This document shows, piece after piece, positions 46,450 to 57,900 of a DNA stretch of 64,000 bases. The position numbers and the translations under genes are program-made. Source of the DNA: Nymphaea colorata (Eukaryota > Streptophyta > Magnoliopsida > Nymphaeales > Nymphaeaceae); NCBI RefSeq assembly GCF_008831285.2, contig NC_045140.1, forward strand, positions 6,117,528 to 6,181,527. The letters run 5' to 3'. The notes beneath the pieces are model-generated. The model made no database searches and was not told where the DNA came from. It saw nothing but the letters and a program-made list of their open reading frames with translations. How positions within the stretch are numbered: position 1 is the first letter of the stretch; each line of letters opens with the position of its first letter.

Positions 46450-46724
46450 TGTTAGCGTATGGAGGTTCGGGTCTATTCAGAGCCGATCCACTTGTTTTCT
46501 AATCCACACGCCTAAACATACTAGGCGGTGGCACATCTGTAAATGTTATATAATTTGTGTACATTTTGTTATAACCTGATTAGGTTTATTCTTTAATATA
46601 GCTTAAGGATCACACGGCTAAAACTGCCGGTGACTCTCTTTCTCCATTTGTCTTCTCTTCTACTTCTTCTTCTCATTCTAGCAGATTTCAGACAGAGAGA
46701 CGTGCATAAGCAAAGATTCTTACA
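46450..46724 (+). repeat. 5' LTR of copia B
   Basis: 275 bp, starts TGTTAGCGTATGG and ends GATTCTTACA. It differs from the 3' LTR at three substitutions by my reading. It carries the element's promoter region; TTTAATATAGC near 46593 may be its TATA-like motif. Confidence 0.9.
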
Positions 46725-50000: not shown

Positions 50001-51343
50001 CAATATGGGGAAGATTATGATGAAACATTCAGTCAAGTCATCAAGATGGGAACAATACGCGTGATTATTTCTCTTGCAGTCTCATATGGGTGGCCTCTTT
50101 ATCAGTTAAATGTTAAAAATGCATTTCTTCATGTGATTCTTAAGGAGGAGGTCTACATGGAGCAACCCCTGGCTATACTACTCATGATCCTCAACAATGG
50201 GTTTGTAAATTACAAAAATCTCTATATGGGTTGAAGCAAGCTTCTAGATCATGGTTCGATCGTTTTTCTCATCATATACAACAAGTTGGTTTTCTCCGAA
50301 GCTCTCTCGATCACTCTTTGTTTATCTATCATTCCGGCGAAGCTACCACTTGGTTGCTTATATATGTTGATGATATTGTTATCACTGGGAACTTGACATC
50401 ACATATATCCTATGTTAAAAATATGTTGAAGCAAGAATTCAAGATGAAGGATCTTGGCGAATTACGGTATTTTTTGGGTGTTGAGCTTGACAGGACAAAT
50501 GATAGATTGACTCTTACGCAGCACAAGTATACCCTAGATGTTTTGGACAGGGCAGGCATGACTAATTGCAAACCCATAACTACTCCTAGTGTTCTAAACA
50601 CTAAGTTGACTTCATCTGATGGAACTGCAGCATATTCCGATCCTACATTCTATCGCAGCATTGTTGGTATGTTACAATACCTCACTTTTACTCGCCCAGA
50701 TATAGTATATGCTGTAAATCAGATTTCTCAGTTCATGCATGCCCCCACAGAAGGACATATGGATGCCGCTAAGCGGATATTGCGGTATCTCAAAGCTTCT
50801 CTTGGAGATGGACTAGTCTACACAAAATGCCCCAATCTTTCTCTTGGACATAGCATATATACATATACTGATGCAGACTGGGCAAGCGATCCCGATGATC
50901 GACGATCAGTTTCAGGCTTCTGTCTTTTTCTTGATTCTAATCTCATCTGTTGGAGCAGTAAAAAGCAGCGTGCTGTTGCACGATCCAGCACTGAGGCAGA
51001 GTATAGAGCAATGGCTGCAGGGACCGCTGAAGCATCATGGTTACGACATTTGCTTGGAGAGCTTAATCTTCCTATTGCCCAATCATCATTACTATGTGAC
51101 AATCAAAGTGCAATAAAAATTGCCTTCAATCCCATTTTGCATAATCGTACCAAACACAGAGAGATTGATCAACACTTCATCCGTCAGAAGGTTGAAGAAG
51201 CCGAGATCGTGCCTACTTATATATCCACCAGTGAACAAATAGCTGATATCTTTACTAAAGGACTCACAGGGCAGCATTTTTGGGACTTGAAGAACAAGTT
51301 ATGCATGGTCAAATCTCATGCACAACTTGAGGGGGGCTGTTAG
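47029..51343 (+). pseudogene. gag-pol polyprotein of copia B, three disabling changes
   Basis: The frame opens MDQPTPSLLSSSFLSQL. Gag contains a CFYCNKRGHVKSECW zinc knuckle (47896-47940). The protease has WYVDSGAAAHVTGD (near 48110). A gag-pre-integrase segment (SIWHGRLAHCSQ) and the integrase core (FIDSYSRYTW; CDGGGEF; HTPQQNGIAERKHR) follow. The RT has SKWVYKLKYKPDGSI, LYGLKQASRSW (across a frameshift) and YVDDIVITG. RNase H has ADWASDPDDRRSVSGF, SSTEAEYRAMA and ADIFTKGL. The full length of about 1,430 codons is normal for the family. It is broken by one missing base in a C run at 48756-48757, a TGA at 49740-49742, and one missing base in a C run at 50166-50169. No other disruption is seen, which fits the near-identical LTRs. 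Confidence 0.9.
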
Positions 51344-51612
51344 CGTATGGAGGTTCGGGTCTATTCAGAGCCGATCCACTTGTTTTCTAATCCACACGCC
51401 TAAACATACTAGGCGGTGGCACATCTGTAAATGTTATATAATTTGTGTACATTTTGTTATAACCTGATTAGGTTTATTCTTTAATATAGCTTAAGGATCA
51501 CACGGCTAAAACTACCGGTGACTCTCTTTCTCCATTTGTCTTCTCTTCTACTTCTTCTTCTCATTCTAGCAGATTTCAGACGGAGAGACGTGCATAAGCA
51601 AAGATTGTTACA
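51338..51612 (+). repeat. 3' LTR of copia B
   Basis: 275 bp, same termini as the 5' LTR except GATTGTTACA at the end. It is preceded by the polypurine tract TTGAGGGGGGC. Confidence 0.9.
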
Positions 51613-51616
51613 GACA

Positions 51617-51891
51617 TGTAAGAATCTTTGCTTATGCACGTCTCTCCGTCTGAAATCTGCTAGAATGAGAAGAAGAAGTAGAAGAGAAGACAAATGGAGA
51701 AAGAGAGTCACCGGCAGTTTTAACCGTGTGATCCTTAAGCTATATTAAAGAATAAACCTAATCAGGTTATAACAAAATGTACACAAATTATATAACATTT
51801 ACAGATGTGCCACCGCCTAGTATGTTTAGGCGTGTGGATTAAAAAACAAGTGGATCGGCTCTGAATAGACCCGAACCTCCATACGCTAACA
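51617..51891 (-). repeat. Inverted third LTR of copia B
   Basis: A full 275-bp LTR in reverse orientation starts TGTAAGAATC and ends CGCTAACA, so its U3 end faces outward and abuts the right GGAAT duplication. With the 3' LTR it forms a ~550-bp near-perfect palindrome around the 4-bp spacer. It shares one diagnostic base with the 3' LTR (CAGACGGAG) and two others with the 5' LTR (ACTGCCGG, GATTCTTACA). Confidence 0.92.
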
Positions 51892-52401
51892 GGAATATGC
51901 TACCACACTTAATGTTCCCACAATGCATCGCACGATCCTTCCCTTCCATCTAGTGCAGTCAAATGACTCAGATCTAATGGAGATATTTCCTACCCTACCT
52001 CCAATCACAGATACACTATAACATAAAGGGCCATAAGCCGCTCATACCTGTTCAGTAAAGTAACAATGGCAATAGCCCTTGTGGCAATAGACTTTTTGCC
52101 ATGGTTTTGACTGCGGCTATCGCATCCACTACCCATGGTATGCTTGGACCATTAACCTTGTGGCCATTATTTATAACAACCACAACAGCTCTTTATGTAT
52201 TAGCCATGGAAAAAACCACGGCTATTCATTAATTCATTTTTTGTTACACACACACACACACACATACTTGTCCTCAAGAAACGAAAAATAGCTGGTGCAA
52301 ACTACTATATTTAAAACAAAATCCTTAAGAAGAGTATCAGCCACTTGGAATCAGTACAACAATTGAAAATATCCTTTCCACTCCACCCTTTGTGCTATCA
52401 A

Positions 52402-52542
52402 TTATGTAACACAAATGCAGCCTCCGTGCACCGTAGCGATTACATGAGCTAATAGCAGAAGCATAGATGCAGTGATCCCCACCCTCAGTGCTTCGCAGCT
52501 TGGCTCTTTGCACTCAAATATGAACACCCTGATGTGCCTTTG
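52402..52542 (-). pseudogene. Captured DUF1218 membrane-protein exon
   Basis: Behind an acceptor (TTGTGCAG at 52543-52550) the frame reads QRHIRVFIFECKEPSCEALR, then VGITASMLLLLAHVIATVHG and GCICV before a stop. The phrase EPS-x-EA-(17)-AHVIA-x-x-x-GGC-x-C is how I remember the DUF1218 family (four-helix membrane proteins tied to wall lignin and vein patterning). A single exon is present. The identification is by recall of the motif and less certain than the other two fragments. Confidence 0.55.
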
Positions 52543-52985
52543 CTGCACAATAAACAGAAAACATCTATGAACGTGAAGCTGGATTTTGATTTCTCTTAAG
52601 CTTAACAGTTGCAGTCTATTTTTCTCTCTCTTCATTAAGTGCTCAAGAATAAATAGAGCAGAGACATGGAAACAGCAGCTTCAAGTTTAATATAGCTTAT
52701 TTCACCGTAGTACCACGTTTTGTATCACTGTCTGACCTTTACACAAGGGGCAAACAGATACTTCTCAAGAGAAAATTTGGTATAACTTGACCTGTGGACC
52801 ATACTTGCTAATGATCAAAATTAGGAGGGTCTTAAACATCAAATGAGAAACAGCAGCCAATGAAGAAAAAAGTCAGGAAATACGTGAGACAGAATGGAAC
52901 TAGATATAGCCTCACTCTAACTATATGCCTTTTTTTAAAAAGAACCAAGTGTGTAAAAAATAGCTATGTTAGATCCCCTCTAACC

Positions 52986-53731
52986 TTCACATAGTCAATA
53001 GCATCAATCATCTTCCCAGCATATTTTGGATCAGCATATTTCCCCATTTCATGAATTAATAACATGCCATACAAAGTAGAAATACAAATCAATCATATCA
53101 TGCCTCCGGAAAGCTCCACAGGATGCCCCATGTAACATACAATCTTGACCCAATCTGTGGTAATGTTGCTGAAACAGGAGATCGTACCAAACCTGACAGA
53201 AGCAGAAGAAGTATTTCACCATTTGCCAATTCCACAATTGTTAACCTAAGCAGAAGAAGTATGACCAGATTCAATCAAATTTCTTACTGCCAGATATAAA
53301 ACTTGGAGTCCGCAGAATGCACTACTACTTATGAACACCAATAGAAGACCACAAACAGTAGACTTACATGTTACAATTTACAGCCATCAATCAGTGTAGC
53401 ATTCTAGTGGTTGATTCTTGGAATTAACAACAACAATGTTGATTATTTCCAAATTATATTCTACCTTGCCTCGCGATCACTGATGCAACCATGAAGGACG
53501 TCATTAAGAAGCTTCATGGTAACAGCCCCAGCTGTGACCCTTCCAATGGTTTTCCTAGCCGATGACCTACCACCACCCTGCATTTCCATGAAGCTTCAAT
53601 AATATTGGAAGTTACATCAGTTTCCATCAAATAGCTGCAGTAGGAGAAAGAGAATCCTGCACGGATCTACACCATATTTAAAATCACATGCTGCATCAGC
53701 GTGAGAAGGCCTGTAGGCCAGGTTTAATGTT
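52986..53731 (-). pseudogene. Captured fragment of chorismate synthase
   Basis: Exon A (53731 to about 53674) reads LAYRPSHADAACDFKYGV, matching the family's AYRPSHADATYDFKYGVR. Exon B (53577-53465) reads GGGRSSARKTIGRVTAGAV, matching the FMN-site signature GGGRSSARETIGRVAAGAV. Its remainder is out of frame. Exon C (about 53046-52986) reads KYADPKYAGKMIDAIDYVK, resembling CPDPEYAEKMIAAIDAVR. Chorismate synthase is the last enzyme of the plastid shikimate pathway. Only the middle of the protein is present, one conserved Glu of the signature is Lys, and the reading frame is broken. Exon borders keep GT-AG signals, so genomic DNA rather than a processed RNA was captured. Confidence 0.8.
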
Positions 53732-53823
53732 CTGCAACCTAAACAACTTTCCAAAGTCCTATTCAGCCCCTTCTCAACCAAAACAGTATCCCAGTTACAT
53801 GGTGTGGGGGTAATGGCATTTAC

Positions 53824-54275
53824 CTGCATTTCTTCTTCTCAGATACATGTACAAGGCAATTACCAATGCCAGAATAACAGCTGATGCTACCACTAGTACT
53901 ATGATGAGTAACTTATGGCTTTTTCCTGGGGATCCTGAATTGTCAGTCCTGCGCCCACATGTTAAAAAGGTCGGTCTCAAATGCTGATGTAGTACCTGAC
54001 TCCAACTATGTTAGTGAAATCAATGCCTACCTCAACATGAGCTGTCCATTCTTTTGCTTGTCCAGTAAACTGCTTGGAACAGGTCCAGACAAGTGGTTGT
54101 TGGACTAGTCCCTAAGATCAGAAGTGCTTAATGAGTTCACTCATGGAATTATAACAAATGAGCTCATCAAGATGGCAAAGTCTTTGCAGCCCTCACAATG
54201 AAGTCAAGCTTTTTAATGTTCCTAAAGAGTCTGGTATAGGACCCTTCAAGTTATTTCCTGATAAATTTTTGCATC
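53824..54275 (-). pseudogene. Captured fragment of an LRR (malectin-type) receptor kinase
   Basis: Three exons with GT-AG borders. About 54275-54197 reads NLSGNNLKGPIPDSLGTLKSL. 54111-54031 reads on as LD-stop-SNNHLSGPVPSSLLDKQKNG. 53948-53824 encodes a membrane-spanning segment (KLLIIVLVVASAVILALVIA) followed by YMYLRRRN. This is the juxtamembrane order of LRR-I/malectin receptor kinases, where LDLSNNxLSG is followed by a KxKNGxL phrase and a transmembrane helix. The TAG stands where the family has Leu. The ectodomain start and the whole kinase domain are absent, so this is a captured piece, not a gene. Confidence 0.75.
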
Positions 54276-54715
54276 AAGATCACAAATTTTAATCAGAGAA
54301 AGTCTCAAATTTTTAGAAAATATGAAAGGCAGACCTTCATATTGAGTTTGAAAATTTTAATGATCCAAAGATTCCAAACACTGATCCAAAAGGTTGGTGA
54401 AAAGTGACAGCAAACCATGCAACTAAAGACAATATCAGATTCCCATTTTAGCATTTTTTTTTTCATTAGCATTGGCTGTAAGAAGAGAAGTAATATTAAA
54501 TTAACATATAGCATGGCATGAGTAAAAGCTACATCTTTCTTAAACTGTTAAATAGGATTAGGAGAAGACATATGCCATCAAGCTACGAAACACAAAGAAG
54601 CTCTTAAACTCTAGAGATGCAATACCATAGAACTAAAGAAGCTCTTTTTTGTCTACGTAGAAGACAGACTGTTCTGCTAGTACAGATAGTTCTTTACAAT
54701 GATGACAATGACAGT

Positions 54716-54892
54716 CAGGGGTGGAGGGAGGGGGGGGGGGGCCGCCCGGGCCATGGCCCGGGTGAGCGCAGGGAAAAAAAAATTATATTGAAAAAATCAT
54801 TTTTTTTAGTTTGGCCCGGCCCGTCGCTCCTCTTGGCCCTACCCGTCACTCTTCTTGGCCCGACCCTGAAAAAAATCCTGGCTCCGCCCCAG
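54716..54892. mobile_element. 177-bp hAT MITE nested in the CACTA element
   Basis: A perfect 8-bp direct repeat ATGACAGT (54708-54715, 54893-54900) encloses the element. It starts CAGGGGTGGAGG and ends, reverse-complemented, CTGGGGCGGAGCC. It contains an 11-base G run, a GGGCCATGGCCCGGG palindrome and an A/T-rich middle. A related copy begins at 63830. Confidence 0.8.
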
Positions 54893-56329
54893 ATGACAGT
54901 AGAAACCTCAGCTATTGCACATCTTTCCCTACTCAGAGGTTGATCAGTGCTTGAGGTTTCAAAACCAAAATTGACTACATTTTTGTTTACCCTTCTCACT
55001 CAATTTACCCATCAGTTCATTGTTGATCATCACACTAACCATCAACCTATTACAACTTAAATGTATGCTGTGTGTGTGTGTGTGTGTGTTTGTGTGTTGT
55101 TTTAATTACTTAAGCGATAGTAATTAACCAGGCCTGCTAACAGTTCCTCCATTGTCCAACAAAGTGTGGTTATCAAGGAAAAATATTTAAATTTTAATGC
55201 CATCATCTAAATGTGAGTTACTTCTTTCCTGTTAATTGTGAAACAGCATTCAAGATGCCAAACCAACAAGAACCTCACTTGGATAGGGACTGTCCAACTG
55301 TCTGGCCAAGAGAAATAGAGGAAACGATGAATATGCCTAACCAGCAAATCATCTTATTGATGTCCAAAAAAAAGTCAATCAGACCTTAACAAAGTAATTG
55401 GGAGCAGAATCGCAGAAACAAATGATAAAAGACAAAATTAAAACCAGCATAGACAACCACTAAGTGTCATGAAAATGCATAACTGCATATAGCAAACGAA
55501 TGTCCAACTATTTTCTGCCAAACAAATGAACACGCTAAATTCACAGAATGAGATAAAAAGCCTTACCGACAAACCCTTACGAGCAAGGGAGGATAAGCGG
55601 AGGAAGAATCGGATGATGATTCTCCCTCTGATCACTACACGAGAAAAATAAAAGCACTAAAAAATAAGTGTCCCACTAGAAAAGCTTAATTATAACTACA
55701 AAATAGGAACCTAGTTCTCAAACGAGAGATGCTGGAAAGATGAACAGCTATAAGACATACCTAAGTGAATCAACACATAGTTCTTCACATCAGCGCCTCA
55801 CCGACCAATACGGAAAAGAATCCGATCAACGGCCGAGACCCAGAGCAAATCACAGAAAAGGAAAAGCAAAAAGTCTTTAGCTTCAGCACCGGTGACAAAA
55901 GAAATGAGCTGGAAGAAACCTCTGGAGCAAACTTGAGCATGGACTAGTCTCTCCCTTTCTCGACCACCGAAAACTTTCGCGCCAAATAAAATCGCGAGGG
56001 AATGATGGACACGCGTCGCGGGTTGTTAATATAAAATGTTGAGCTGCTTAGACCCGTGGTCATGTCATATCCATGGGCAATGATCGTGGGTATTGCCCAG
56101 TTTTGTTGTAGTGATAGCAGGCGATCTAATGAGACATTTTCCCCAAACATCAGCTCCAAGTGATCATTTAATATTTACTGATGTCTCAAAAACTCATCAG
56201 TCCATATCATCTGTCAACACCCCAAAATTTCACTACAAATATTTGCCACTCCATAACAAAAATATGTATGTAATTTCAGTTTCATCTGTATGTTGTCATT
56301 TTGTATCTACCCAAGTCAGAGGTTAAATC

Positions 56330-57260
56330 CAGACTTTCATTCATCCGCCACAGCCCCAGGATTTAGAATCATACATCCAAAAAGATCAGCTTTCAGATTC
56401 AAACTAGATCCAAATCTCAACCCCAGACCCATCTTGGATCAAATTCCAAACCCTAGATTCACTTCAAATCTAAACTAAGGCCTGAATCCCAGATTTAGAT
56501 CCATTTCAGACCTAAACTATTAATCCCCATGTGTCTTCTGGATTTTTTTGGGATCTAAAATCCAACTTTCAATCCATTCAGGATCCAAACCATCACCTTC
56601 GGATCCATCTAGATCCAAACTATCACATTCTAATCCATTTCAGAACCAAATTATTACTTTCGGATTCACCATGATCCAAACCATCACTTTCTGATCCATC
56701 TATATCCACATTACCACTTTCGGGTCCAAATTATTAGTTTCAGATCCATCAAGAATCAAACTATCTCTTTTGGATTATTCCGAACTTTTACTTTTAGATT
56801 CATCTAGATCCAAACTTTTACTTCCTGATCCGTCAGGAGTCAAACTATCTCTTTCAAATCGATCCGGATCCAAACATTTACGTTTGTATCCATCAGATCC
56901 AAACCATTACTTTCAGATCCATCTAGATCCAAACTTTTACTTTCCGACCCATCTAGATCAAATAATCACTTTCAGATCCATTCGGATCCAAATCATCACC
57001 TTCCAATTCATTTAGATCCAAACTCTTACTTTCCGTTCCATTCATATCCAAAATGTCACTTTCATAACCATTCGGATCCAACACATCACTTTTGGATCCA
57101 TTTCGATCCAAAATAGCATTTTCAGATCCGCTTAATTCTCACTATCTGTTTTGGCTCTGGATCTCCATTGGGTTCTCAATAATCACATTCAGATCCAACA
57201 CCCAAAATTCAGATCCAAAACTCGTTATCCAAACCAAAAAAATTCATTTCAGATCTCATT
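56330..57260. repeat. Degenerate ~30-bp tandem repeat array (AGATCCA units)
   Basis: The phrase TTTCAGATCCATCTAGATCCAAAC and its variants recur some 25-30 times in one orientation with a spacing of roughly 28-36 bp. Divergence between units is high. No terminal repeats or target duplication could be found. It codes for nothing credible; the open frames follow from the repeat. Confidence 0.8.
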
Positions 57261-57403
57261 ATGCACAAAACTCTACATACAGGAGCATCCCCCTCGACTT
57301 GGTTTGGACCGCCACATACAACGTATAGGGACCATCAGTCAACCACAGGGCTACAACATCACACATTACATGACGAGCATGAATGAGGCTTTCCTGTTAG
57401 AGT

Positions 57404-57900
57404 ATGAGTTTTGGCACGCACAGATGCTACGCAGAATACTGCAAAGGCACGATGGGGCACCAGACCCGGCCAACACCTATGAGCTTAAGATTGTTCTTCT
57501 CTAATTTACATATAGACTGGATGCAAAGCTTTACTATAGTTGGGTCTATCACAGCATGCATGGTTGTCATTTTAATGGCAGGGGACGATGAGAAATTCTT
57601 GCAACTCACAAAGAAAATGTTGAACAAGAGTTTTGAGATCAAGGACTTGGGTAGACTACACTATTTTTTAGGAATTGAAGTTGCACATTCATCCAAGGCT
57701 TTGTTTATATGCCAACAAAAATATCCATTGGACCTATGAAAAGTTACCAGAATGCTTCGAAGCAAAGAACGCTGCCACTCTAATGGAGGTCAACATAAAG
57801 CTGATGAAGGATACGGGAGGAGTAACTCAAAACTGGCAGGTAGTTGGTAGATTCAGCATGGAAGATGAATACCGTGCAATGTTTGTGGACCAAATGAATC
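57404..57900 (+). pseudogene. Ty1/copia reverse transcriptase fragment
   Basis: The plus-strand frame reads MLNKSFEIKDLGRLHYFLGIEVAHSS, LFICQQKYPLDL (57590-57739), a standard copia RT/connection motif. After a frameshift it continues as FEAKNAATLMEVNIKLMKD and the RNase H-like RFSMEDEYRAMF (57756-57890). The YVDD box region before it survives only as VVILMAGDD. Orphan fragment without LTRs. Confidence 0.75.

Follow-up and report, generated by a model that had tools for sequence, protein, structure and literature searches.

Transposons of the CACTA (En/Spm) superfamily generate a 3-bp target-site duplication, and an element of this type that carries pieces of several host genes is described here from Nymphaea colorata. 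The sequence analysed, hereafter the window, is a stretch of 64,000 nucleotides (positions 6,117,528 to 6,181,527 of the forward strand of contig NC_045140.1, NCBI RefSeq assembly GCF_008831285.2), and the element spans 4.1 kb of it, from 52014 to 56113 in window coordinates. It is very probably a non-autonomous Pack-CACTA that was assembled in more than one step. Among the closest published elements is Tgm-Express1, a CACTA element in the soybean wp allele that holds five gene fragments within 5.7 kb and from which chimeric spliced transcripts are produced under the host gene's promoter (PMC1947982). In common with Tgm-Express1, the window element is a CACTA transposon of a few kilobases whose cargo comes from exons and introns of several host genes unrelated to one another. 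However, the insertion of Tgm-Express1 is intronic, in a gene that is expressed, and its chimeric spliced transcripts are documented, whereas the window element is known from its sequence and is distinguished by a nested miniature inverted-repeat transposable element (MITE) and by broken splice sites.

Multi-gene CACTA elements have also been published from maize, where they are termed Pack-CACTAs. For rice, PMC8903248 reports a significant number of multi-locus elements only for Pack-Mariners, and the same paper proposes that Pack-TYPE elements grow through the joining of neighbouring insertions. The window element resembles the Pack-CACTAs of PMC8903248 and PMC13317346 in having multi-locus host coding DNA between CACTA-type ends. 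Nevertheless, the former study works on clusters of similar elements from which singletons were removed, whereas for the window element half-relatives alone, and no second copy, were found in the genome searches given below. CACTA elements of Chenopodium likewise contain host gene fragments, but upstream of a transposon coding region (PMC8978399), whereas no transposase domain was found in the ten of 112 listed open reading frames (ORFs) of the window element that were scanned against Pfam. Pack-MULEs and Helitrons share with it the capture of several genes and the possibility of chimeric transcripts. The ends, target duplication and transposition enzymes of these two groups are other than those of CACTA elements. 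Within the Pack-CACTA literature, as covered by titles and parts of abstracts, no paper naming this element was found. A first-pass annotation, made from the letters of the window, had considered three donors in a 4.1-kb CACTA unusual; this view is not sustained, because multi-gene CACTA elements have been published (five fragments in Tgm-Express1, PMC1947982, and the maize Pack-CACTAs) and three or five donors therefore lie within the known range. This kind of element is already well known, and the window element is a good example of it.

Termini, target duplication and family of the ends

The element is bounded by inverted termini that both begin with CACTA and agree at 11 of 13 bases, the remaining 2 of the 13 differing between left and right. 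The left end with its sub-terminal region (52014-52266, plus strand) opens with the terminus CACTATAACATAA, the right end (56064-56113, 50 bp) carries CACTACAACAAAA on the minus strand, and the triplet ATA stands on each side, at 52011-52013 and at 56114-56116. When the window was screened for CACTA...TAGTG pairs 300 bp-20 kb apart, with at least 11 of 13 end bases matching and an equal 3-bp duplication, this pair was the sole one found, and the inverted CACTA-type ends and ATA duplication proposed in the first-pass annotation are borne out. Shuffled windows contained a mean of 0.08 such pairs, with one or more in 7 of 100. The 13-base end word is unconvincing by itself because its frequency is near chance: at up to 2 mismatches it has 6 matches in the window, not above the 3.34 expected. 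The sub-terminal motif repeats noted earlier are indeed present, with CCATGG three times at the left and once at the right and GGCAAT at both ends, though their abundance is modest.

Further evidence comes from relatives of the two ends elsewhere in the genome, which was searched over 407.8 Mb in 783 contigs (loci are cited below by contig and position). The first-pass annotation had suggested looking for other copies by their terminal sequence, and matches to both ends exist: for the left 253 bp there are 39 further ones among the best 40 of 56 candidates, and for the right 154 bp there are 4. The relatives of the left and right ends thus differ much in number. In 13 of 29 inspected left-end relatives a CACTA-like word is found no more than 80 bp from the expected end, compared with 3 in 116 control stretches; it is always 8-70 bp further out than in the window element, and among the 13 it is altered to CGCTA or CATTA in two and starts GACAA in one, while the other 16 show no such word there. 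On the right, the last 50 bp, including TAGTG, recur at C1:20.42M with 88% identity; the right terminus is altered in two copies on C9, and a relative on C13 diverges before reaching it. Because of this family evidence (13 of 29 versus 3 of 116, and the right end recurring on C1), the ends are regarded as genuine and not as chance occurrences.

Two other loci with CACTA-like ends were observed. One, at C13:4.39M (L027, 1388-2314), is a possible 0.9-kb family member whose left word is CACTA-like, with 2 mismatches, and whose right terminus is of CACTA type, and no matching 3-bp duplication was found there; at the other, C7:9.84M (L019, 2160-5789), CACTA ends lie 3.6 kb apart around a stretch that is also present in the window element. 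A short way to the right of the window element lies a GATCC-rich degenerate tandem array (30-bp unit, 17.3 copies, 56582-57112). On its left, long terminal repeat-like sequences at 46450-46724, 51337-51612 and 51617-51892 are 99% alike and, as read by eye, apparently bound a Ty1/copia-like retrotransposon; the third copy is inverted and stands 4 bp after the retrotransposon, giving 276-bp arms that are 99% complementary. An Rfam scan of 51000-57500 returned nothing at gathering scores.

The captured cargo

Judged by DNA similarity, the cargo between these ends is a mosaic of five host-gene loci plus two further loci that are not tied to genes. The first-pass annotation had recognised three captures on one strand, from an LRR receptor kinase, chorismate synthase and a DUF1218 protein, and had proposed a search for their donors in the same genome. 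These captures are real: genes matching them at the DNA level were found on C1, C4 and C11 respectively, with chorismate synthase also recognised by Pfam, and all three are on the minus strand. As a count of donors, three is too low.

Positions within the element (q) equal window positions minus 52013. The leftmost piece is a DUF1218 gene fragment (52412-52691, q399-678, minus strand), 79% identical to a donor gene at C11:20.51M which itself passes Pfam PF06749. Next is a 121-bp piece of the downstream flank of a GATA-factor gene (52699-52819, q686-806, minus strand), 93% identical to C6:5.07M, where its source lies about 310 bp downstream of a GATA zinc-finger ORF. Chorismate synthase is represented by two minus-strand fragments, between which sit two blocks (53060-53505, q1047-1492) that are 93% and 89% identical to C3:21.74M, a locus where the 2 ORFs scanned gave no Pfam match. 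Fragment 2 (52813-53034, q800-1021) comprises part of an exon and an intron and is 76% identical, with gaps, to the C4 gene; fragment 1 (53504-53722, q1491-1709) is 92% identical to this gene, at C4:27.6M, and has a Pfam match within the element. A family search for chorismate synthase, in which all 9 of 9 candidates were scored, returned 5 matches to the C4 gene, the element's own piece and 2 on C95. On sequence grounds no plausible donor other than the C4 gene was seen, because the other matches are the element itself and stop-ridden pieces on C95. At C95:7584-8778 the chorismate synthase matches form two pieces with 11 TAG and 2 TAA inside, and this contig is possibly a contaminant, derived from an organism in which stop codons are reassigned.

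A 66-bp filler (53715-53780, q1702-1767), 89% identical to C2:19.50M, leads into a malectin/LRR receptor-kinase fragment (53780-54311, q1767-2298, minus strand), which is 90% identical to a gene at C1:27.86M. In this donor a malectin-like domain exceeds the Pfam cut-off and a kinase match falls short of it; the LRR label of the captured piece derives from a weak Pfam match in the element and from reading of the sequence. The following stretch (54312-55221, q2299-3208) is common to both C9 relatives, at 89% in its left part and 85-87% in its right part, and some of it also occurs in a C7 locus at 79%. The 3' region of a ribosomal protein L34 gene (55309-55539, q3296-3526, minus strand) matches C8:13.49M at 86% and C2:31.20M at 80%, its identification coming from a Pfam match below the cut-off together with exon reading. 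Finally, a putative leader or promoter-like stretch (55606-56056, q3593-4043), probably on the minus strand, is 74% identical to C13:6.92M and contains the palindrome TTTGGCGCGAAA (minus strand) at about 55975, which we take to be E2F-like. At C8:4.81M (L020), the leader-like stretch recurs in a tandem of three units, each about 1.5-1.6 kb long, and L34 3'-region pieces lie beside at least two of them. All five assignable donor loci are represented in the same sense, on the minus strand, and the donors are on different contigs. In the Pfam scan of ten ORFs, one chorismate synthase match exceeded its cut-off; a second chorismate synthase stretch, the LRR match and unrelated families fell below theirs, and no match came from the scanned ORFs of the DUF1218 area or of the L34/leader area.

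The C9-shared stretch is interrupted by a nested MITE of 177 bp (54716-54892, q2703-2879), flanked by an 8-bp duplication, ATGACAGT, at 54708-54715 and 54893-54900. By its duplication and ends, this MITE appears hAT-like, and its sequence has at least 26 further matches among the best 40 of 650 candidates in the search with the whole element. Both C9 copies are without it, C9b representing the uninterrupted site and C9a having in addition a small deletion beside the site; the insertion is younger than the cargo of the element.

Half-relatives and probable assembly in steps

The search with the whole element scored the best 40 of 650 candidates, and sub-searches in which every candidate was scored covered 52660-53780, 53780-54311, 54300-54715 and 54895-55980, 52267-52659 having no search of its own. 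Together they revealed no second full-length copy and no locus with pieces of both halves of the element. What they did reveal are loci corresponding to one half or the other, the left half being carried by C14 and the right half by C9 and C13. The C14 locus matches the window element in order and sense from the left sub-terminal sequence through DUF1218 and a GATA-flank piece to chorismate synthase, and is 85% identical to it over 52267-52690; no right end was found within the 9 kb inspected. At the DUF1218 piece, 66 sites group the window element and C14 against the donor gene, compared with 17 and 24 for the other groupings, the count of 66 being inflated by ends that are non-homologous to the gene. 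Past the chorismate synthase piece, C14 tracks the gene and not the window element. In both C9 copies, which lie 26 kb apart in like orientation and remain similar beyond the right end, the receptor-kinase piece leads to the same C9-shared stretch and then to the right end. The C13 locus contains the L34 piece and the leader, together with the end of the C9-shared stretch and a portion of the right end.

This division of the relatives, C14 against C9 and C13, supports stepwise assembly, and because no locus combines both halves it also suggests that the final element may be two smaller elements joined near 53722-53780, a proposal that stands about evenly balanced. On this scheme, a left lineage would have gathered the DUF1218, GATA-flank and chorismate synthase pieces, while those of the receptor kinase, L34 and the leader accumulated in a right lineage. 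Fusion of the two lineages at the C2 filler would then have produced the 4.1-kb unit, whose insertion took place at ATA. The joints would have been made while DNA was repaired, by template switching or end joining, the hAT-like MITE would have inserted thereafter, and mobility would have depended on a transposase from elsewhere acting on both ends. Words shared at the joints, as read by eye, amount to 7 bp between the GATA flank and chorismate synthase, 5 bp at one C3/chorismate synthase joint and, on the two sides of the C2 filler, about 3 and 2 bp; neither the DUF1218/GATA-flank joint nor the second joint between chorismate synthase and C3 showed a clear shared word by eye. Such words suggest a fit with template switching or end joining in repair. 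The multi-capture Pack-CACTA of the first-pass annotation thus stands in its several host-gene captures and, through the half-relatives, in its stepwise growth, but not in its number of donors.

Alternative readings and transcript potential

A number of observations weigh against stepwise assembly as outlined. At chorismate synthase, the window element and C14 share 3 changes relative to the gene, compared with 27 and 30 for the other groupings (counts that include unaligned ends), and their breakpoints differ; this sequence may have been captured twice, or just before the element and C14 separated. The GATA-flank match of C14 (97 bp, 81%) comes from another part of the flank than the window piece and is possibly a repeat. 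Receptor-kinase sites are not decisive, with 16 grouping the element and C9 against C1, 17 the element and C1 against C9, and 5 C9 and C1 against the element, ends past the breakpoint being included. Neither kind of half-relative has both ends, no transposase domain was found in the scanned ORFs, the C7 locus with CACTA ends has no matching 3-bp duplication, and the words shared at the joints may be chance matches. The left flank has no other match in the genome and hence gives no empty site from that side. These half-relatives may be remnants of one old element. A single full-length ancestor of this kind, from which C14, C9 and C13 derive, is supported by the matching order of the left half on C14 and the right half on C9 and C13, and by the degraded state of the relatives, whose termini are changed or missing; set against it are the failure of the searches to find a copy with sequence from both halves and the way C14 follows the gene beyond chorismate synthase. 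It remains a tentative reading, somewhat below an even chance, and it overlaps in part with the favoured one. An already mosaic host locus, captured once, later bracketed by two CACTA ends and mobile once, could have arisen by repair or segmental duplication and would accommodate both the single sense of the five assignable pieces and the two like-oriented C9 copies with similarity past the right end. However, no locus holding a chain from both halves was found, and on C14 the left CACTA sub-terminal sequence adjoins DUF1218, so that the cargo was already inside an element; this origin is unlikely. Least probable is an old patchwork of gene fragments on which CACTA-like words and ATA coincide by accident: despite the pairs in 7 of 100 shuffled windows, the near-chance frequency of the end word and the two differing terminal bases, it was rejected on the CACTA-like termini of the left-end relatives and the recurrence of the right end to its last base on C1.

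The first-pass annotation held that intron borders are still present, which is correct in part. In the receptor-kinase and chorismate synthase pieces, whose frames and splice sites were read by eye, some splice sites are kept; the receptor-kinase piece, however, is interrupted by an in-frame stop and has lost one acceptor, chorismate synthase fragment 1 has a 1-bp deletion causing a frameshift and a lost splice donor, and in fragment 2 the 3' exon portion with its splice donor is gone. The longest stop-to-stop frame in the element is 111 aa, and the longest unspliced frame beginning with ATG on the minus strand has 77 codons. The cargo is decaying and most likely without protein function. Because of the 77-codon frame, the stop, the frameshift and the lost splice sites, a chimeric protein product appears unlikely, and a functional one was rejected on the same grounds. 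A transcribed chimeric gene, in which the right-end leader drives minus-strand transcription across the gene pieces and the plant makes use of the spliced product, would draw on the common sense of the pieces, the E2F-like palindrome near the right end and the splice sites that are kept, as well as on the spliced transcripts of CACTA cargo in soybean (PMC1947982). This possibility is nevertheless improbable given the short frame and the same lesions, and in soybean the host gene's promoter was the starting point of every transcript isolated (PMC1947982). At most, the element may give rise to small RNAs or to a transcript in the common sense that can be spliced in part. Equally doubtful is a mobile exon cassette, whose captured E2F-type leader would drive minus-strand transcription across the five same-sense pieces, with capture itself biased towards the sense orientation; if this were true, CACTA elements would build transcription-ready mosaics and not random scrap.

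All five assignable donors lie in one sense, which by coin-toss chance would occur about 1 time in 16; this agreement is a lead towards an orientation bias in capture and not a proof of one. Its donors and half-relatives can be named within a single genome, one half has a common left end and the other a rare one on the right, and short words are shared at some of the joints; in this way the window element shows how a Pack-CACTA mosaic may grow in steps.

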